From assembly GCA_004299275.1 (NCBI GenBank), contig SCSU01000073.1, forward strand, positions 1 through 42,660: a stretch of DNA of 42,660 bases, given 5' to 3'. The stretch is from Patescibacteria group bacterium (GTDB lineage: Bacteria; Patescibacteriota; Patescibacteriia; 2-12-FULL-57-11). The position numbers and the translations under genes were made by a program. Positions 1 to 40,087 of the stretch are shown piece by piece (positions within the stretch are counted from its first letter, which is position 1; each line of letters starts with the position of its first letter). Under the pieces are notes generated by a model. It worked only from the letters and a program-made list of their open reading frames with translations, did no database searches and was not told where the DNA came from.

Positions 1-228
1 TTTCATCATTCTCTTTCGGCTGTGGTGGCGGCGCGGCCGCGACCCGAAGATTAAAACGATTATGGCGGAATACGAACCGCCGAAATCGCCCCGCTCCCCA
101 CTCGCTCCCGGACGAGGCCCGAGAGCACTGCAGGACCGAGCTCATCCGGCGGTTCGTATTCCGCCATAATCGTTTTAATCTTCGGGTCGCGGCCGCGCCG
201 CCACCACAGCCGAAAGAGAATGATGAAA
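1..228. repeat. Perfect 82-bp inverted repeat (1-82 and 147-228) around a 64-nt spacer; probable contig-end fold-back artefact
   Basis: 1-82 is the exact reverse complement of 147-228. The spacer continues the DUF2207 reading frame and the left arm then reverses it. Confidence 0.95.
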
Positions 229-1241: not shown

Positions 1242-2251
1242 AAATTTTTTTTGTTCAAAACATGCTCTTCCAAAGTCCGGGCGTAATAGACCTTGCCGTC
1301 CGGCGCGGTCAGAAAGTACCAAAAAACGTTGGGCTTCCTCTCGAGCACGGCGCGAATTGCCGCTGACCCCGGATTCCCGATCGGGCCGGGCGGCAGACCG
1401 CGGTATTTATAAGTATTCCAAGGGTTATCCGCGGCGCGAGCAGCGGCCGAGGTAAAAACCGACTTTTTCCCGCTCACATAGTTTACCGTGGAATCGGCTT
1501 GGAGCGGTATCCCCGCCTTGAGCCGGCGGCTGAAGATGTCGGCCACGAGGCGGCGGTCCTCGTCCGAACGAACTTCGGATTCCACAATTGAAGCCAAGGT
1601 GAGAATCTCGTGAAAGGTGAAACCGGAGCGTCCGGCCGTCTCTCGGAAGTCCGCATTTTTTTTCTCGAAAGTGGCGAGGAGTTTGCGCGCAATCTCCTCG
1701 GGACGCGCGTCGGCGAAAAACCGATAGGTGTCCGGAAAAAGATAACCTTCGAGCGAGATTGAACCGGGTTTTTCTTTGAGGAACGGAAAGTCGTCGGGTG
1801 AAATTTTAGGCGGCGATGAAAGTTGAGCCGGCTGGCCGGTAATCGCCAAAAAACTCTCGGCGTTCTCGATTAAACCGGCTTTGAGCAGAATCACGGCGAC
1901 CTCGCGGAGACTGCTGCCCTCGGGGATGGTCGCTGTAACCTCCACCCGTCCTTTTGCCGAAAGTATCCTTATAATCTGCCGGACGCTCGCGCGCCGGGGG
2001 ATAAGAAAGATACCGGGGTGGAAGGAACGCGCCGCGCCGCCCGCGCCGGAGACGATGGCAAAGACAAATGATTTCCATGGTGTGAGCACGCGCGCGTCAC
2101 GGAGAACGCGCCCGACTTCATCCACGCTGTCATTTTTTATCTCTACTCTGACCGTTTCCCCGCCCGCGCCGACAAAATAACTCACAGCTCCCGCGCCAAA
2201 AAAAACAAGAGCCAATATGACGAGCGCTAAACCGGCGCGGCCGATTCTCAT
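1238..2251 (-). CDS. mltG: Endolytic murein transglycosylase MltG (YceG-like)
   Basis: 'LTLASIVESEV', 'LQADSTVNYV', 'NPWNTYKYRGLPPGPIGNPG' motifs; N-terminal TM helix. Confidence 0.95.
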   Translation of the reverse strand: MRIGRAGLALVILALVFFGAGAVSYFVGAGGETVRVEIKNDSVDEVGRVLRDARVLTPWKSFVFAIVSGAGGAARSFHPGIFLIPRRASVRQIIRILSAKGRVEVTATIPEGSSLREVAVILLKAGLIENAESFLAITGQPAQLSSPPKISPDDFPFLKEKPGSISLEGYLFPDTYRFFADARPEEIARKLLATFEKKNADFRETAGRSGFTFHEILTLASIVESEVRSDEDRRLVADIFSRRLKAGIPLQADSTVNYVSGKKSVFTSAAARAADNPWNTYKYRGLPPGPIGNPGSAAIRAVLERKPNVFWYFLTAPDGKVYYARTLEEHVLNKKNL

Positions 2252-2799
2252 AACTTTTTAATGAAAGCCAAAGCGGCGTAGGCGCCGCCGACGTGGACAA
2301 TCGAGTTGAGTTTGCCGGCGGCGAGCAACTTTCCAAAATCGCGGAGCGGCATGGCTATGACTTCAGTTATCTCTTTGGGCGTATTTTTCGGCCGGCCGAC
2401 CAACCGGCAGCCGAGCGCCGCGTAAAGCCAAAACTTGCCGGTGGAGGAAGTGGAAAATATTTGAAACGAACGGACAAATTTCATCAGCCGCGGCTCATAA
2501 CCAGTTTCTTCCCTAAGTTCGCGGCGCGCGGCCGCGAGCGGGCTCGGGTCGCGCTTTTCAATCCGCCCCACTGGCAGTTCCAGCAAAATCCGACGCGCGC
2601 CATGCTTGTATTGTCTGACCAAAAGCACTTCGCCCTTGGCCGTAACCGGGAAAACCATTACCCCGCCCAAATTGTGATTGACAAAAAAATGCGCAGTTCC
2701 GCCCGAGGGCAGGAGCACGGTTTCATCAACAATATCCCACCAGCGGTTCTTAAACGCGGTTTTGGTTTTTAGAATTTTCCACTTGCTCACCTTTTTCAT
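2248..2799 (-). CDS. NUDIX hydrolase (ADP-ribose pyrophosphatase-like)
   Basis: NUDIX box 'GRIEKRDPSPLAAARRELREETGY'; start at MKKVSK. Confidence 0.88.
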   Translation of the reverse strand: MKKVSKWKILKTKTAFKNRWWDIVDETVLLPSGGTAHFFVNHNLGGVMVFPVTAKGEVLLVRQYKHGARRILLELPVGRIEKRDPSPLAAARRELREETGYEPRLMKFVRSFQIFSTSSTGKFWLYAALGCRLVGRPKNTPKEITEVIAMPLRDFGKLLAAGKLNSIVHVGGAYAALAFIKKL

Positions 2800-2857
2800 G
2801 TTACAATAATTCGTACATTTACCGCCGAGCGGAATCCCGGCTTTACGTCGGAACGCA

Positions 2858-2906
2858 TTGATTCGCAATTCGTAATTTCGTATTGTATTCGTACTTTCGT
2901 AGCCAT
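2858..2906 (+). repeat. 49-nt dispersed TTGATTC...TCGTAGCCAT element, copy 1, ending in the start codon of the glycosidase
   Basis: 48/49 identical to the reverse complement of 16544-16592. Confidence 0.9.
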
Positions 2907-3915
2907 GAAGCAACAATCTCAAACACTCGTCGGGCTCCTCGCTATTTATTTCGGCCTCGCTGGTCTGGTTTTTGTCGGTACGCGCGTGGAAGAAGTCATT
3001 GAGCCGCCACGGCAACCGATTTGGGGAGCGACTTTTATGCCGAGCTACGCGGCGTTTATGGGGAACGACCCCCGCGCGGTGCTCGTAGCTCTGCTTGACG
3101 AACTCGGCGTCAAACATTTTCGGTTGACCATCCCCTGGGACCGGCTCGAGGCAAACCGTGGTCAGTTTACCTTTGCAGAAATCGAGTGGCAACTGGATGA
3201 AATCAAAAAACGCGGCGGCGACGCTATTCTCGCCATCGGCCGCCGCACGCCGCGCTGGCCGGAATGTCACGACCCGGCCTGGCTTAAGGCCATCTCGCCC
3301 GCCGAACAAGATGCCGCTACTCTTAATTTAATTAAAACCGAAGTCGAAAAACTCAAAGAGCGGCGCGAAATTATCGCCTGGCAGGTGGAAAATGAACCGT
3401 TGCTGCGCGTTTTCGGCCGTTGTGAGCGCCACAGCCGCAAACTTTGGCAGAGCGAAGTGGCGCTCGCGCGCCAGCTTGACGGTTCGCGGCCGGTCGTGAC
3501 CACGGAGTCCGGCGAACTCTCTACCTGGTTCGGCACGGCGCCGTCCGTGGACGCTCTCGGCATCTCTATTTATCACCAGACTTGGAATAATTGGCTGGGA
3601 AAAATTATTTATCCCCTCTCGCCGGCTTTTTACCGCCGGCGGACGGAGTTCACGAGAGCTCTCTTCAATAAACCGGTCTTCGTCTCCGAACTCCAAGCCG
3701 AACCCTGGGCCGGCGCGGCGCTCACGGAGCTCTCCATCGACGACCAGCTCCGGCTCGAGGACGCCCCCTCGCTCCGGCGCATGGCCGACTTTGCCGCGTC
3801 CACGCGCTTATCGCCCGTCTACTTTTGGGGCGCGGAGTGGTGGTACACGCTCCGCGAACAGGGGCAACCGGATGTCTGGGAAACCGCTAAGGAAATCTTT
3901 AAAAACCGCTCTTGA
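2905..3915 (+). CDS. Membrane-anchored or secreted glycoside hydrolase, TIM-barrel clan GH-A-like
   Basis: N-terminal hydrophobic segment; 'WQVENEPLL' (NEP acid/base-like) and 'VFVSELQAEPW' (nucleophile-like). Confidence 0.75.
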   Translation: MKQQSQTLVGLLAIYFGLAGLVFVGTRVEEVIEPPRQPIWGATFMPSYAAFMGNDPRAVLVALLDELGVKHFRLTIPWDRLEANRGQFTFAEIEWQLDEIKKRGGDAILAIGRRTPRWPECHDPAWLKAISPAEQDAATLNLIKTEVEKLKERREIIAWQVENEPLLRVFGRCERHSRKLWQSEVALARQLDGSRPVVTTESGELSTWFGTAPSVDALGISIYHQTWNNWLGKIIYPLSPAFYRRRTEFTRALFNKPVFVSELQAEPWAGAALTELSIDDQLRLEDAPSLRRMADFAASTRLSPVYFWGAEWWYTLREQGQPDVWETAKEIFKNRS

Positions 3916-3956
3916 CGAAAAAACACCAAACCGGTGAACTGACGCCGGAGGTCAAC

Positions 3957-4613
3957 GTGGAGAGAGTAAACCAAACCGCCGAGGAGGCTACGCTCACGAA
4001 CTGGCTCGCCGGCTATCTGCGGGCAAAAGGCAAACGCGGACGAACCGAGGAGCTGATGGCGCCGCTCTTCGCCCTCGTTCGTCCGTTCGCCGAGATCACG
4101 CGGACCGGCCGCTACCCGCTTGCCGAGTGGACGGCCCTAAACTCCCTCGAGGTTGCCGCGGCAATCGAGGCGGCAACCGGCGAGAGCGTGAAGGAACTCG
4201 TGCCGCTTTCGGTCGGCCGCGGCTGTACCACGGACTGGCGCGAGACCGTTTCGCTCCAAGCCCGGCTCGCTGACAGTGACTACCAGATGCGCGCCGGCAA
4301 CTGGACGCAGGAGGTCAGCTATCTCCGCGACCAGCTCACTATGCTCCTTTTCGAGGCCCTGCGACGCGCCATCGCTAAGACCGCCGGTCCGGCGCTCCGC
4401 GCCGCCATGAGCAAAGAGCGCTGGCACAAAGGTCCGGGACTGACCCTCACCCGCTCGGTCGAAAAGGTCGTGCTCCTCGAGGTCGGTTTTGCCAAAAATG
4501 GCGATCGCGAAGGTTTTGACCGCGTCGCCCCGCTCGCCAGAGTGCTCCCCCGCCTGCTCATCCTCGGCGCGGCCGTCGGCGAACCGCGCACCTGGCTCGT
4601 CGTCGTCGCCTAG
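3957..4613 (+). CDS. Uncharacterised protein with GTG start; strong SD and own terminator
   Basis: Open frame; GGAGG 5 nt upstream of GTG; hairpin plus T-run directly after the stop. The supplied ORF starts upstream at TTG 3912. Confidence 0.6.
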   Translation: MERVNQTAEEATLTNWLAGYLRAKGKRGRTEELMAPLFALVRPFAEITRTGRYPLAEWTALNSLEVAAAIEAATGESVKELVPLSVGRGCTTDWRETVSLQARLADSDYQMRAGNWTQEVSYLRDQLTMLLFEALRRAIAKTAGPALRAAMSKERWHKGPGLTLTRSVEKVVLLEVGFAKNGDREGFDRVAPLARVLPRLLILGAAVGEPRTWLVVVA

Positions 4614-4620
4614 AGTCATG

Positions 4621-4646
4621 CCGTGGCGGCCCGCCGCGGTTTTTTT
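4621..4646 (+). terminator. Rho-independent terminator
   Basis: ccgtggcgg/cgccgcgg stem followed by a 7-T run. Confidence 0.85.
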
Positions 4647-4651
4647 ATTGA

Positions 4652-4688
4652 TTACGAATTACGAATCAATACGAATTTACGAATAATG
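4652..4688 (-). repeat. TTCGTA-type dispersed AT-rich repeat
   Basis: Minus strand reads ATTCGTAAATTCGTATTGATTCGTAATTCG, made of the same words as the 49-nt element. Confidence 0.65.
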
Positions 4689-4719
4689 GTCTGATGTTGT
4701 TTTAATAACTTGTTTTTCT

Positions 4720-4749
4720 GTTTCCGTTGCTGTTGCTGTTTCTGTTTCC
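4720..4749. repeat. Degenerate hexanucleotide array (GTTTCC GTTGCT GTTGCT GTTTCT GTTTCC)
   Basis: Five consecutive related hexamers between convergent genes. Confidence 0.75.
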
Positions 4750-4762
4750 CTTTTATTGTTTT

Positions 4763-5854
4763 CTACAGATATTTCTTGAGTTTCCTCTTGACCATCACTT
4801 CCACCAATTTTTTAACCTCTTGCGAGCGAGACTTTGGGCAGACCAAAACCGCGTCTTCGGTCTCGACCACCACCATATCGTGCACGCCGACCGTGGCGAT
4901 GAGCTTGCCCGCCGCGGAGACGAGGAGATTGCCGCCGGAGTCAATCGCGAGGTGCGGACCGCGCGCGACTGTCGCTTGGGGACTCGCGGCAAGAATCTCG
5001 TGCACCGCCCGCCAGCTTCCGACATCAGTCCAGCCGAAGTCCGCCGGAATGACCGCCATCCCTTTTTCTTTTTCCAGAATGCCGTAGTCAATGGTCGTGG
5101 GCGCGATGGCCGCAAATTCGCGGTTAATCACCGCGTTCTCGCGCACCGTGCCCAAAGCGTTTTTTATCTTCACGAGCCGCTCATGCATCGCCGGCAGATG
5201 CCGGGCGTATTTCTGGAACAATGTACTGGCTTTGGCCACGATGAGCGTCGGGTTCCAAAGATACTCCCAGGACTGGACGTAACGCTCCGCGGTTTTCTGA
5301 TTCGGTTTTTCCACAAAAGCCCGGACCGAAAAAATTTCATCCTCGCCGCGCCGACGGCGAACCCGCGCCAGCAGGTCGCCCATCCGGATATAGCCCAAGC
5401 CGGTATCCGGATAAGCCGGCCGGATGCCGACGAGCACCAGTCGGTCCGGCTCGGCGCGCGCCAGCGACTCCGCGACTTTGAGGATGCGCAAAAATTCGCC
5501 GACGTCGCGGACAAAATTATCGGCATTGGCGTAAACAATAAAGGCCTCGGGGTCTTTGTGAAGAATCCGGACGAGCGCCAGGCCCAAAGCCGGCGCGGTT
5601 TCTTTTTTCATCGGCTCGACCGAGATATGCGCGCGGGGAATCTGCGGCAATTCGCGGCGCACGCGGTCCAGATACTCGCGGGTGGTCGCGACCCAGAGCC
5701 GCTTGGCGCCAAAACCGCGGCTGAGCCGCGCGGCGGATTTCTGGAGCATGGTCTCTTGGTCAAAAAGCGCCTGCAGCTGTTTGGGCGCGCCGGCGCGGGA
5801 AAGCGGCCAGAGCCGCGTGCCGGCTCCGCCGGCCATGAGAATCGGGGTCAACAT
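4763..5854 (-). CDS. manC: Mannose-1-phosphate guanylyltransferase
   Basis: 'MLTPILMAGGAGTRLWPLSRAGAPKQ', 'VEPMKKETAPA', 'FVEKPN', 'DFGWTDVGSW'. Confidence 0.92.
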   Translation of the reverse strand: MLTPILMAGGAGTRLWPLSRAGAPKQLQALFDQETMLQKSAARLSRGFGAKRLWVATTREYLDRVRRELPQIPRAHISVEPMKKETAPALGLALVRILHKDPEAFIVYANADNFVRDVGEFLRILKVAESLARAEPDRLVLVGIRPAYPDTGLGYIRMGDLLARVRRRRGEDEIFSVRAFVEKPNQKTAERYVQSWEYLWNPTLIVAKASTLFQKYARHLPAMHERLVKIKNALGTVRENAVINREFAAIAPTTIDYGILEKEKGMAVIPADFGWTDVGSWRAVHEILAASPQATVARGPHLAIDSGGNLLVSAAGKLIATVGVHDMVVVETEDAVLVCPKSRSQEVKKLVEVMVKRKLKKYL

Positions 5855-5861
5855 AAATATG

Positions 5862-5889
5862 AGAAGTTAGAAATTGGGAGTTGGGGGTT
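5862..5889. repeat. Heptamer array AGAAGTT AGAAATT GGGAGTT GGGGGTT
   Basis: Four successive 7-nt units between uppP and manC. Confidence 0.75.
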
Positions 5890-5906
5890 GAGTGTCGGAC
5901 GCAAAG

Positions 5907-6695
5907 CTATTTGCTGCTCACAATGATGATGACAACAAGTGCCGCTAAAACCAGCCGATACCAGACAAACGGCCGGTAACTGGCACGGGCAACATACCGC
6001 AAAAGAAAACGGATGGCCAAAAGTCCGGCAAGAGCCGCTACAACAATACCCACAAAAAAAGCCGGCGTAATGTCAGCTGAGTTCAATGAACGCAAGGCGT
6101 AAAACGCGGCGCCGGCGGTAATCGGCGTCGCCAAGAGGAACGAGAGCCGCGCCGCCGCCTCGCGGTTAAACCCGAGCGCGCGCGCCGCGGTGATGGTTGC
6201 GCCGGAGCGGGAGACGCCGGGGACAATCGCCGCGGCCTGAGCCAGACCGATAAAAATCGCGCTTGAAACCGAGAATCCGGTTGCCTCTTTCGCTCTCCGG
6301 CCCCAAAGGTCGGCGAGATAGAGCAACACACCGGCAACAGCCAGAGCAACGGCCACGAGCAGCGGCGAGCGAAAAAAACCTTCAGCCTGTTTTTCAAACA
6401 GCACGCCGGCTAACGCCCCCGGGAGCGAACCAAGCGCCAGGAGCCATAAAGTTTTTTGGGGTGACTTGCCCGCGCCGCCCAAGCCGGTCCGGAAAATATC
6501 CAGCCAGTCGCGGAAAAAATAAATCAAAAGCGCGAGCAGCGTGCCCAAGTGCAGGGCCACGTCAAAGGCGAGCCCGGGGTCGCGCCAGCCGAAAAACCAA
6601 GGCAGGAGCACTAAATGCGCCGAAGAGGAAACCGGCAAAAATTCCGTCAGCCCCTGGACCAGCCCGAGCGCCATCGCTTGAAAGATTGAAATCAT
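5907..6695 (-). CDS. uppP: Undecaprenyl-diphosphatase UppP (BacA family)
   Basis: 'GLVQGLTEFLPVSSSAHL', 'GVSRSGATITAARALGF'. Confidence 0.95.
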   Translation of the reverse strand: MISIFQAMALGLVQGLTEFLPVSSSAHLVLLPWFFGWRDPGLAFDVALHLGTLLALLIYFFRDWLDIFRTGLGGAGKSPQKTLWLLALGSLPGALAGVLFEKQAEGFFRSPLLVAVALAVAGVLLYLADLWGRRAKEATGFSVSSAIFIGLAQAAAIVPGVSRSGATITAARALGFNREAAARLSFLLATPITAGAAFYALRSLNSADITPAFFVGIVVAALAGLLAIRFLLRYVARASYRPFVWYRLVLAALVVIIIVSSK

Positions 6696-7222
6696 ATCAG
6701 CGAATAGATTTTTACCGCTTCCACTACGGCTAAGGAAACAACTCCGGCGAGCAGGGCGCCGGCCAAAACATCCGAGGGATAGTGGACGCCGGCCGAGATT
6801 CGCGCCAAGCCGACCAGGACCGCCATGGCCAAAAACAGCGGGCCAAGCGGATGCGCCAAGAGGAGGAAGGTCAGGGCCACCGTAAACCCGATCGTCGTGT
6901 GGTCCGAGGGAAAAGATTTCCAGCGCGGCGGCATCCAGACCAGCGGCTCGAATTTAAGATGGGTAAAAGGCCGTTCGCGGTAAAGTAAAAGCCCCAAAGT
7001 CCAGGAAATGATTTCGGCAATGATAACGGCCGCGACCGCGGTCAAAAAAATGCGGAGCGTCTGGGTAAAATGCGCCGGCCCGCCTTCGGTGAGCGAGGTC
7101 ACGGCAACAAGGAGCAGGAGATAAAAAAGCCAGGTGGCAAAAAATTTAATCAGCGCGTCAAGCGCCGGCGACTTGCCGACGGGTGACCTCATGACACGGA
7201 GAATTTTGAGATCCAGGTCCAT
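6692..7222 (-). CDS. PAP2-superfamily phosphatase
   Basis: 'FPSDHTT' and 'ARISAGVHYPSDVLAG' motifs. Confidence 0.9.
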   Translation of the reverse strand: MDLDLKILRVMRSPVGKSPALDALIKFFATWLFYLLLLVAVTSLTEGGPAHFTQTLRIFLTAVAAVIIAEIISWTLGLLLYRERPFTHLKFEPLVWMPPRWKSFPSDHTTIGFTVALTFLLLAHPLGPLFLAMAVLVGLARISAGVHYPSDVLAGALLAGVVSLAVVEAVKIYSLI

Positions 7223-7266
7223 ATAAATCCCTCCCCCTTGCGGGGACTCCCTTTAGAAAAGGGAGA
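7223..7266. repeat. Dispersed ATAAATCCCTCCCCC...GGGAGA repeat, copy 1
   Basis: Near-identical to 11131-11174 (one indel and one mismatch over the shared core). Confidence 0.88.
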
Positions 7267-7278
7267 ATTTGGCACTTA

Positions 7279-8097
7279 TTAAATTTTCGCCGTCTTGGGC
7301 CGGGCCAAAAATGAAAGGCCGAAGACGGCGGCGGAAACCAAAACGACGGTCGGGCCGGAGGCGGTGTTCGCGTAGTAGGAAATGATGAGGCCGGCGAGGG
7401 AGGAAAAAATTCCGACCAGGGTGGAGACGGCCACGAGACTCCGCATGCTCCAGCCGATATTTTTGGCCGTCGCCGCGGGGATAATCAGGAGCGGCCCGAT
7501 GAGCACCGCGCCGACGAGCCGGATCCCGAGGGCGATGGTCAAAGCCAGAATGACCAAAAAAAGACGGTCCTGAAAACTGACGTTAACGCCCTCCACCCGG
7601 GCCAGGTCGGCGTGAAAAGCGATTTTCGTCCAGACCCGGAAAAAAATCAAAAGCAGGATGACGGTCGCGGCGGTCAGAACGGCAATCAAAATATTGTCCA
7701 AAGCCGAAACGCCGAGAATATCGCCGAAAAGATAACCAAAAAGGTCAACCCGGTAGCCCTTGAGCGCGCCGATGACGATTACGCCGAGCGCGAGGGCGGT
7801 GGAAAAGAAAACACCGATAATCGTATCCAGCGAAAGCGAGCGGCGCTCGCCGAGTTTAGAAATAAGCAGGGCAATCAAGACGGCAAAACCGGCGGCACCC
7901 GCAAGCGGGTGGATACCGAGCAGTAACCCCAGCGCCACGCCGGTAAACGAGGCGTGGGCGATGGCGTCGGAGAAAAAAGACATTTTCCTGACTATCACGA
8001 AAACGCCGAGGTTGGCGGCCAAAATCCCGATTAAAACGCCAGCGATGAGCGCTCGCACAAAAAAGTCGTATTGGAGAAAATCGGGCATAAGATTCAT
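7279..8097 (-). CDS. znuB: Metal (zinc/manganese-type) ABC transporter permease
   Basis: ABC-3 family: 'RKMSFFSDAIAHASFTGVALG', 'RLVGAVLIGPLLIIPAATA'. Confidence 0.88.
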   Translation of the reverse strand: MNLMPDFLQYDFFVRALIAGVLIGILAANLGVFVIVRKMSFFSDAIAHASFTGVALGLLLGIHPLAGAAGFAVLIALLISKLGERRSLSLDTIIGVFFSTALALGVIVIGALKGYRVDLFGYLFGDILGVSALDNILIAVLTAATVILLLIFFRVWTKIAFHADLARVEGVNVSFQDRLFLVILALTIALGIRLVGAVLIGPLLIIPAATAKNIGWSMRSLVAVSTLVGIFSSLAGLIISYYANTASGPTVVLVSAAVFGLSFLARPKTAKI

Positions 8098-8132
8098 TCG
8101 TGAGAATTCGGGTAAATTCGGAGATTTAAGAG
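8093..8132. repeat. ATTCGTGAGAATTCGGGTAAATTCGG repeat, copy 1
   Basis: Close match to 12529-12570; starts at the same distance from a start codon. Confidence 0.75.
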
Positions 8133-8867
8133 CTAACCGTGGTGGCGGTGGTTCCCGCGCTCGCCGGGCGCGTGCAGATAGCGCGCCGGCGTGGCGTACG
8201 CGCGGGAAAGCGTTTCGGCGGTAAGCACCTTGGACGGCGCTCCCTGACAAATCAGCTTGCGGTTGACGCAAACAACTTTGCTGGCGTAGCGGAAGACGAT
8301 ATCCAGGTCGTGTGAGACGAGGAGCACAGTCATATGCCGCTCTTCGGCCAAGCGGTGAATCAAGCCGTAAATCGTTTCTTCCCCCTCAATATCAATGCCT
8401 GAGGCGGGCTCATCAAGCACTAGCAGGGTAGGATTGGCAATCAGGGCATTCGCGATAAGCACGCGCTGGAGTTCGCCGCCGGAGAGCACGCCGATTGGTT
8501 TGTCCACGAGCTTCGCGGCGCCGACATCCTTCAGCGCGTGGGTAATCGCCTCATGCGCTTGCTCATCATGGCGCCAAAAACGATGGCGGACGAGCCGGAG
8601 CAAAAGCAGTTCCTCCACGGTCAGGGGAAAAGAGGGGTCAAAGTCCACTCGCTGGGGAACGTAGCCCGTGGTTGGCGGCTTTTCCCAGAGCACCTCGCCC
8701 GCCGCCGGCGCGAGACCGAGGATGGCGCGAATCAGCGTGGTTTTGCCCGAACCGTTCGGGCCGATAATGGCCACGAGCTCTCCCTGCTCTACCTCAAAAG
8801 ACACTCGCTCCAAAACGCGGGTTTCGCCGTAACGGACGCTCAACTCATGGACTGCGAGGAAAGGCAT
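8133..8867 (-). CDS. znuC: Metal ABC transporter ATP-binding protein
   Basis: Walker A 'GPNGSGKTTL', signature 'LSGGELQRVLIA', Walker B 'LLVLDEPASGID'. Confidence 0.92.
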   Translation of the reverse strand: MPFLAVHELSVRYGETRVLERVSFEVEQGELVAIIGPNGSGKTTLIRAILGLAPAAGEVLWEKPPTTGYVPQRVDFDPSFPLTVEELLLLRLVRHRFWRHDEQAHEAITHALKDVGAAKLVDKPIGVLSGGELQRVLIANALIANPTLLVLDEPASGIDIEGEETIYGLIHRLAEERHMTVLLVSHDLDIVFRYASKVVCVNRKLICQGAPSKVLTAETLSRAYATPARYLHAPGERGNHRHHG

Positions 8868-16275: not shown

Positions 16276-16542
16276 TTATTTTGGAAGTGAAGCACTGGAG
16301 ACAAGCGCCTTGAGCCGACTCGCCACGCGCGACAGACGGGTAGTCAGTACAACGACAACCACGGTGATAAAGGCGGCATAAACAAATTTGGCGACCAAGG
16401 TGTTGGCCGTGCCGAAAATCACGCGGAAGAGTTCTTGAATGGCGTCATTCCAGGCCAGCGCGGCCACGAGCCCAAAGCCGGTCGAGGAGAGCGCGGACAT
16501 GTTCTCAATGATGGTCAGCCGGAGAGAATCATTTTTCCCCAT
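16276..16542 (-). CDS. Small membrane protein (DUF5654-like)
   Basis: 'SALSSTGFGLVAALAWNDAIQELF' plus a TM helix. Confidence 0.7.
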   Translation of the reverse strand: MGKNDSLRLTIIENMSALSSTGFGLVAALAWNDAIQELFRVIFGTANTLVAKFVYAAFITVVVVVLTTRLSRVASRLKALVSSASLPK

Positions 16543-16543
16543 A

Positions 16544-16592
16544 ATGGCTACGAAAGTACGAATACAATACGAAATTACGAATTGTGAATCAA
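16544..16592 (-). repeat. 49-nt dispersed TTGATTC...TCGTAGCCAT element, copy 2
   Basis: 48/49 identity to 2858-2906; ends 1 nt upstream of the DUF5654-like start codon. Confidence 0.9.
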
Positions 16593-16610: not shown

Positions 16611-17807
16611 TTAGTGAATTGCGAGTTGACGCGTCAACAGTGCCTCTATTCCCGGCAGTTGCTTGCCTTCCAAAAACTCCAGCATCGCCCCGCCGCCGGT
16701 TGATACCCAATCAATATAGCCGAGCACGCCCGCGAGCGCGAGAGCGTCAATCGTCTCGCCGCCGCCGACAACCCCGTAAGCTCTCCCTTGGGCTCGGGCG
16801 CCGAAAACGAGCGCGAGCGCCCGCGTGCCGTGCGAAAACCGCCGCTCTTCGTAAAGTCCGAGCGGGCCGTTCCAAACAATGGTCTCGGCTTTTTTTACTT
16901 CGGCGGCGAAGGCCCGAATGGTTTGAGGACCGATATCATAGATAATCTCCTTGGGCCCAACTTCGTCCACTCGCCGAACGAACGCTTTGCTTTTCGGTGA
17001 AGCCGCGACGACAACGTCGGTGGGGAGCATAATACTCTTTCGGCTACGGAGAATCCGGCGCGCCAAGGAGACATCGGATTTTTTAAGCGGCGAGGCGCCG
17101 ACAGAAAATCCTTTGGCTTTAAGGAACGGCACGGCCAGCGCGCCGCCAATCGCGAGCCGGGTCGCCCGCCGCGCGAGTGCGCTGATGACCCCGATTTTCG
17201 TCTCAATTTTTACGCCGCCAATCAGCACCAAGAAGGGCTTCTTCGGGTTACTGAGGAGCCGCGAGAGAACCTGAATCTCTTCCGCCAAAAGCAGTCCGGC
17301 GGCGGAGGGGAGATATTTTTGCACGCCGACAATGGAAGCCGCAGAACGGTGGCTCGCGGCAAAAGCGTCATTGACGTAAAAATCCGCAAGGTCGGCGAGC
17401 GCGCGCGCAAAACGCGGCGAATTTTTTCCCTCCCCCGCCTCAAAACGCAAATTTTCCAAAAGCAGGATGTCGCCGGAGCGTAGGGAGCGAACCGCCCGGA
17501 CGACTTTTGAGCCGCTCGCGGCGGCAACAAAACGAGTCGGTTTCCCCAAAAGCTGCTGTAGGTGTCGCGCCACCGGACGGAGAGAGAGCGCCGGCGAGCG
17601 GCGGCCGCTTGGCCGCCCGAGGTGAGAAGCGAGGATAATTTTGGCGCCAGCGGCGGAAAGATGCCGGATTGTCGGCAACGCCGCCTTAATGCGCCAGTCC
17701 TCCCCCACCTTTCCTTTGTTCATCGGGACATTAAAATCCGCGCGCACCAGCACTCGCTTGCCGCGCAATCTCTCCGCCGGCCAATCTTTGACAGTCTTTA
17801 ATTTCAT
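16611..17807 (-). CDS. pgk: Phosphoglycerate kinase
   Basis: 'GKRVLVRADFNVPMN', 'LASHLGRP', 'NDAFAASHR', 'GGVKIETKIGVI', 'WNGPLGLYE'. Confidence 0.97.
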   Translation of the reverse strand: MKLKTVKDWPAERLRGKRVLVRADFNVPMNKGKVGEDWRIKAALPTIRHLSAAGAKIILASHLGRPSGRRSPALSLRPVARHLQQLLGKPTRFVAAASGSKVVRAVRSLRSGDILLLENLRFEAGEGKNSPRFARALADLADFYVNDAFAASHRSAASIVGVQKYLPSAAGLLLAEEIQVLSRLLSNPKKPFLVLIGGVKIETKIGVISALARRATRLAIGGALAVPFLKAKGFSVGASPLKKSDVSLARRILRSRKSIMLPTDVVVAASPKSKAFVRRVDEVGPKEIIYDIGPQTIRAFAAEVKKAETIVWNGPLGLYEERRFSHGTRALALVFGARAQGRAYGVVGGGETIDALALAGVLGYIDWVSTGGGAMLEFLEGKQLPGIEALLTRQLAIH

Positions 17808-17819
17808 ACCCGGTATTAG

Positions 17820-17863
17820 CACGGACCTTGAAGGTCCGTTTTTACAGACCTTCAAGGTCCGTG
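17820..17863. repeat. Nested palindrome: 17-bp perfect arms, each arm itself self-complementary
   Basis: cacggaccttgaaggtc (17820-17836) and gaccttcaaggtccgtg (17847-17863), between the NDH-2 stop and the pgk start. Confidence 0.95.
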
Positions 17864-39333: not shown

Positions 39334-39414
39334 ATTCGTATTTTCGTATTGTATTCGTACTTTCGTAGGCCATAAGTATTCGTAAATTCGTATTTGATTC
39401 GCAATTCGTTTCCC
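39334..39414 (+). repeat. TTCGTA-type repeat (third, divergent copy plus a second half-copy) before the P-loop kinase
   Basis: ATTCGTATTTTCGTATTGTATTCGTACTTTCGTAGGCCAT then TTGATTCGCAATTCG. Confidence 0.8.
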
Positions 39415-40052: not shown

Positions 40053-40087
40053 ATAATTTCGTACTTTCGTACAATTTTCGTAGCCAT
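40053..40087 (+). repeat. Orphan TTCGTA-type repeat with no start codon
   Basis: aataatttcgtactttcgtacaattttcgtagccat followed by AAAATAA. Confidence 0.75.

Follow-up and report, generated by a model that had tools for sequence, protein, structure and literature searches.

Arrays of TTCGTA boxes between the genes of Patescibacteria look like small, probably non-autonomous repeats of a new family

We analyzed a DNA stretch of 42,660 nt from a Patescibacteria group bacterium (assembly GCA_004299275.1, contig SCSU01000073.1; hereafter, the window), and found that a 49 nt sequence present twice within it belongs to a larger set of repeats: arrays of the hexamer TTCGTA, set at regular spacing between genes. 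These arrays look like a new, large family of small, probably non-autonomous intergenic repeats. The reading that we prefer, with a probability of roughly 0.55, is that of a non-autonomous intergenic repeat family of Patescibacteria, the arms of which would be recognised by an enzyme acting in trans, together with recombination among copies.

The original prediction described two copies of the 49-mer, in opposite orientations (Table 1), and proposed that they deliver a promoter and a start codon to new genes. The two copies are indeed identical at 48/49 positions, a match for which the chance expectation is 0 (no matches in 100 dinucleotide shuffles), and their described end points were borne out: copy 1 enters the ATG at 2905, and copy 2 stops just 5' of the DUF5654 ATG. 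The proposed promoter, TTGATT-N17-TATTGT, is also present, with either hexamer scoring 4/6. No third copy of the 49-mer with three or fewer mismatches was found in the whole genome (1,000,965 bases, 73 contigs). Two points had been overlooked. Firstly, the 49-mer consists of four TTCGTA boxes, at distances of 8, 11 and 8. Secondly, it has numerous relatives, including three more arrays in the window; one of these, the six-box array, has its mid spacer (TTGTA) in common with both 49-mer copies. The start of the contig (window positions 1-228) is a fold-back, in which bases ~1-90 recur as reverse complement up to ~228; this is probably an assembly artefact.

Table 1. TTCGTA arrays in the window and the genes beside the two 49-mer copies.
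Feature	Position	Strand	Remarks
Copy 1 of the 49-mer	2858..2906	+	Solo arm; runs into ATG of GH42-like ORF
Four TTCGTA boxes of copy 1	2869..2901	+	Boxes at 2869, 2877, 2888, 2896; spacing 8/11/8
Additional TTCGTA box	2810..2815	+	Near start of divergent NUDIX gene
NUDIX gene	2251..2799	-	Divergent from copy 1
GH42-like ORF	2905..3915	+	Downstream of copy 1; PF02449, weak, E 5e-5
Four-box arm	4653..4683	-	Outer end abuts terminator T-run of opposite-strand gene 3912-4613
Copy 2 of the 49-mer	16544..16592	-	Between PGK stop and DUF5654 start
Four TTCGTA boxes of copy 2	16549..16581	-	
DUF5654 gene	16276..16545	-	Downstream of copy 2; PF18898, E 4e-19
Phosphoglycerate kinase (PGK) gene	16614..17834	-	Upstream of copy 2
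Third array, six boxes	39335..39392	+	22 nt 5' of ATG (39415) of AAA_17-type kinase gene
Three-box arm	40058..40082	+	Facing end of convergent gene

TTCGTA occurs 33 times in the window, where 15.6 occurrences are expected. Genome-wide, the pattern TTCGTAN{1,12}TTCGTA gave 131 matches, while the reversed pattern, used as a control, gave 0. The basic unit, or arm, comprises four direct TTCGTA boxes with a spacing of 8/10-11/8 bp; sometimes, there are more boxes. Within 343 kb (~1/3 of the genome), the 56 kb that are noncoding contain TTCGTA/TACGAA 165 times and the 287 kb that are coding contain it 65 times, making box density 13 times higher in noncoding DNA; these stretches were picked for holding arrays, which inflates the density of boxes but not the coding/noncoding split. 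All 93 of the close TTCGTA pairs in the same 343 kb lie in noncoding DNA, where TACGAA is enriched more strongly than any other hexamer counted (coding regions were called with a simple, purpose-written ORF caller, and individual start positions are approximate). The arrays are, like a MITE-like repeat, multi-copy, non-coding and intergenic. A role as DNA-uptake sequence is unlikely, given that the boxes are nearly absent from coding DNA.

Several further repeats were observed alongside the boxes. The same genome contains a second, TTCGTA-flanked repeat of ~110 nt with the core CAAACCATATAATATTACAAATCGGTGCGGGAC and CCCGC/GCGGG stems (G000:C4:9380-9412, C41:774-806, C49:994-1026 and 1888-1920; also in L027 and L038), as well as CCTGCCTGCCGGCAGGCAGG-type hairpins nested beside TTCGTA boxes (L023 3692-4049, L027 7199-7706, L032 8213-8754, L035 9884-10205). 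At L032 2402-2967, two TTCGTA arrays face outward on either side of a short reading frame, the product of which we take to resemble GxxExxY-type proteins. In L173 (3990-4583), three boxes plus ATACTGATCC make up a 33-bp unit that is repeated in tandem two to three times, a case of array growth by duplication.

Matches to the four-box pattern occur in at least 110 stretches from public genomes, 80 of which were examined. Among the matches listed, nearly all are from Patescibacteria (Uhr-, Doudna-, Portnoy-, Moran-, Taylor-, Lipton-, Yanofsky- and Parcubacteria) or unclassified bacteria; the exceptions among them, both with solo arms, are L123 (labelled Omnitrophota) and L145 (labelled Bacteroidetes, and with genes that look bacteroidetal). 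The same 8/10-11/8 architecture recurs in Uhr-, Doudna-, Portnoy-, Moran-, Taylor-, Lipton- and Yanofskybacteria. In a sample of the phylum, 13 of 379 genomes carry the pattern, several at high copy, while the reversed controls were found in 0. No four-box match was obtained from 2.9 million viral contigs and no similarity to the 49-mer among plasmids or phages, and a viral or plasmid origin was rejected on these grounds.

The form taken by the arrays differs between genomes. Ca. Uhrbacteria (G035), like many other Patescibacteria, usually have a dyad: two outward-facing arms around a centre, which measures 8-56 nt in 25 strict 4+4 elements. Inverted arms are present in most other lineages, while the genome of the window has mostly solo arms and few complete dyads (L025 9148-9213, L042 9436-9484). 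Box-bearing gaps in other lineages form gap-spanning hairpins (median z -5.4; G035 alone, -1.7; single examples, -9.3 and -5.8), while those in this genome do not fold (median z +0.4; window copies, +0.57 and +0.09). The bases flanking the outermost boxes pair and co-vary (permutation gave 0.0006, 0.015 and 0.0006 for positions 1 to 3 in turn; 30 genomes, with the use of one element per genome as the only control for relatedness). In the 25 strict elements, a set that takes in several copies per genome, outer position 2 is paired in 22 (10.2 expected) and mid spacers pair less than shuffled ones (20/86, against 34.4 expected). Extra bases in the strict elements are asymmetric, occurring in one arm.

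A travelling promoter would be expected to sit at gene starts. Stops turned out to be nearly as frequent: 117 outward arm ends lie at starts and 93 at stops (a stop codon or an opposite-strand terminator), with a starts/stops split of 14/12 in this genome, 14/14 in G035 and 89/67 in the others. The shares of tandem, convergent and divergent gene pairs near arms are close to background, and arms are also found inside ribosomal operons and in convergent gaps. In many genes the arms stop 3-8 nt 5' of the ATG; in this genome, the right border TTCGTA-RCC-AT lies before an ATG at some sites, and before the AT-AAAAAAA of an opposite terminator at others. Arms thus fill gaps up to the next functional feature, which explains the coincidence with start codons that gave rise to the prediction.

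TATTGT, the suggested -10, sits in the mid spacer (the most variable part of the arm) and occurs in 3/14 four-box arms. Neither a -35/-10 pair conserved across copies nor a preference for positions upstream of starts over gene ends was observed, and promoter scans yielded no sigma70 promoter at 9/12. An SD-like motif was seen at 0/10 ATG starts directly preceded by TTCGTA arrays, compared with 52/219 (24%) other genes; the 49-mer itself, therefore, delivers no known initiation signal.

Occupancy is specific to lineages. Consistent with the earlier suggestion of a mobile sequence, the 49-mer is repeated between unrelated genes, and the PGK-DUF5654 junction that holds copy 2 is box-free in three genomes of the same family (G001-G003). 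Numerous element-bearing junctions have a bare counterpart (-4 to 25 nt) in a different lineage, and orthologous sites that are occupied in one genome and empty in another were found between both genera and families. Of 214 pairs of orthologous junctions compared across lineages, 10 have three or more boxes in both partners (9.5 expected), while two Uhrbacteria have 5 occupied junctions in common (1.8 expected). With no conserved -10, orientation-neutral placement, and no positional conservation between lineages, the portable promoter did not hold up.

Elements also lie in ribosomal operons, namely those of L173 (rplN-rpsQ and neighbours), G309 (rplD/rplW, rpsS/rplV, rpsQ/rplN) and this genome (rplW/rplB, rplF/rplR); rplB and rplR of this genome were named by Pfam, the other ribosomal genes from sequence by eye. 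In three cases, identity between copies extends to or past the start codon: (i) the pair in the window, (ii) the rplW/rplB and rplF/rplR gaps of this genome, which have 50 nt in common at 96%, including AAAGAAGGT-ATG (SD and ATG), and (iii) the rplD/rplW and rpsS/rplV gaps of G309, which are nearly identical from AATAAGAAGTAA (the last codons and stop of rplD) through ATGGTTATGGCAACTAA (common to both downstream genes), such that several codons are held in common. Near-identical gaps that include start codons indicate that copies can take leader and start codon along. The notion of a portable leader hence retains partial support—shared sequence reaches or passes the start codon in these three cases, but array-preceded starts have no SD-like motif—while that of a portable promoter retains none.

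Other ribosomal gaps have a structure of their own: in L232 (G309) 1690-8250, L147, L144 and L164, many spacers of 75-200 nt that separate ribosomal protein genes form long interrupted hairpins, and every one of these is made from its own short word or end (GATTGCA, CTAG words, CCTATAGG, GATTCGAATCGG, CCCCGTTAGAAA..TTTCTAACGGGG, CCCCCACAC..GTGTGGGGG).

On the preferred reading, a complete element would consist of a short centre with an outward-facing arm on each side, and solo arms, the 49-mers among them, would be half elements. The box arms would be recognised by a putative enzyme or protein that provides mobility in trans, most likely in the manner of MITE, REP/BIME, ERIC and Correia elements. 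Elements would multiply within genomes and settle between genes, filling the gap to a start codon, stop codon or terminator, and recombination between copies would sometimes drag the neighbouring leader and start codon along. No transposase or recombinase was found, nor did the few long stretches bounded by arms that were inspected (e.g., L126) contain an arm-flanked transposase; inspection of several junctions by eye revealed no target-site duplication. The predominance of solo, unfolded arms in this genome counts against a repeat element, and the invariance of the box from family to family might instead be due to a DNA-binding protein of the host.

Were the latter the case, TTCGTA arrays would lie at the borders of transcription units as double-stranded binding arrays for a host protein, be it a regulator, an insulator or a nucleoid protein. 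This would suit the invariant hexamer, the direct-repeat spacing conserved across families, the commonness here of solo arms that are unable to fold, and the way in which outer ends adjoin the limits of transcription units on either side. We nevertheless consider it unlikely, since array positions are not conserved between lineages (the 10 versus 9.5 pairs above), the target genes display no apparent functional class, and both outer-base covariation and start-codon copying are left unexplained. A bolder and more doubtful idea is that Patescibacteria have in common a gene-junction module of iterated TTCGTA boxes, which is copied from one junction to another along with leader, SD, start codon and initial codons, those of essential ribosomal genes included; this would form a natural translation-start transplant system, possibly via a folded single-strand recombination site. 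The interrupted hairpin might otherwise act as RNA or single-stranded DNA, either in mRNA processing or protection between genes or as a folded, attC-type recombination site. The gap-spanning folds and covarying outer bases, the unpaired mid spacer and the asymmetric extra bases of one arm all point in this direction, as does occurrence between ribosomal genes; nonetheless, the solo arms of this genome, the lack of enrichment of co-directional gaps over convergent or divergent ones, the absence of an Rfam match or attC R-box, and ribosomal neighbours that are in conserved order rather than cassettes make it improbable.

Neutral gap growth by slippage and template switching would need no element or enzyme. 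It could account for the hairpins of other short words in other gaps of the same operons, and for the tandem duplication of the 33-bp unit in L173. We find it a little less credible again, because the hexamer and its 8/10-11/8 spacing recur in distant families while reversed controls are near zero. Least credible, and very improbable, is the portable promoter and start codon of the original prediction. Many arms do end 3-8 nt 5' of an ATG, boxes at 8-bp spacing do create TANNTT hexamers, and the window pair has sequence in common up to the copy 1 ATG; however, nearly half of the arms face stops or terminators, arms lie within ribosomal operons and convergent gaps, and the counts for TATTGT (3/14 arms), promoters at 9/12 (none) and SD-like motifs (0/10 starts) all speak against it.

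Patescibacteria are a vast and mostly uncultured group of ultrasmall bacteria with tiny genomes, and yet these repeats fill even the gaps of ribosomal operons. If the elements move, they offer a handle on the dynamics of Patescibacteria genomes, and call for caution with promoter and leader predictions from their intergenic DNA. If, instead, they are bound by a protein, the invariant box makes the binding protein directly findable.

No known structured RNA was recognised (no Rfam match in 70.5 kb), and a search of the open-licence PMC literature returned no description of the TTCGTA family, which is weak evidence of absence. Among known systems, the elements resemble MITEs and intergenic palindromic repeats (ERIC/IRU, Correia/NEMIS, RUP) in being small, non-coding, intergenic, multi-copy and, in most lineages other than that of the window, dyad-symmetric, in lying in operon gaps, and in their lineage-specific occupancy. 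They differ in that MITEs, ERIC and Correia have a unique terminal inverted repeat, whereas TTCGTA arms consist of a 6-bp box repeated at a fixed distance; and, in contrast to MITEs, no target-site duplication is visible, no parent transposon was found, and solo arms are common. Bacterial MITEs are exemplified by those of Coxiella (PMC5896051), and are reviewed in PMC10969869. REP/BIME palindromes, moved by RAYT Y1 transposases, include GTAG/CGTC-tagged families (PMC3733652). Like them, TTCGTA elements are extragenic palindromes, and some TTCGTA arms end in CGTAG or CGTCG beside the fold; they are two to three times longer than REP/BIME, and are built of repeated boxes. The Y1 domain (PF01797) is absent from the element-rich genomes G035, G309 and G381, and present in element-poor ones such as G015 and G036; a Y1 transposase is not the general partner of TTCGTA elements. 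The exact stop-to-start position and outward arms suggested gene cassettes of an integron, a candidate that was dropped in view of the conserved-order ribosomal neighbours and the absence of attC boxes. The likeness to integron attC sites (PMC2727003) lies in the imperfect hairpin of paired boxes, the unpaired central spacer, the asymmetric extra bases, the variable loop, and the position between stop and start codons. Unlike attC sites, TTCGTA elements have TTCGTA/TACGAA throughout in place of RYYYAAC/GTTRRRY, carry four boxes per arm, and lie between core ribosomal genes in conserved order.
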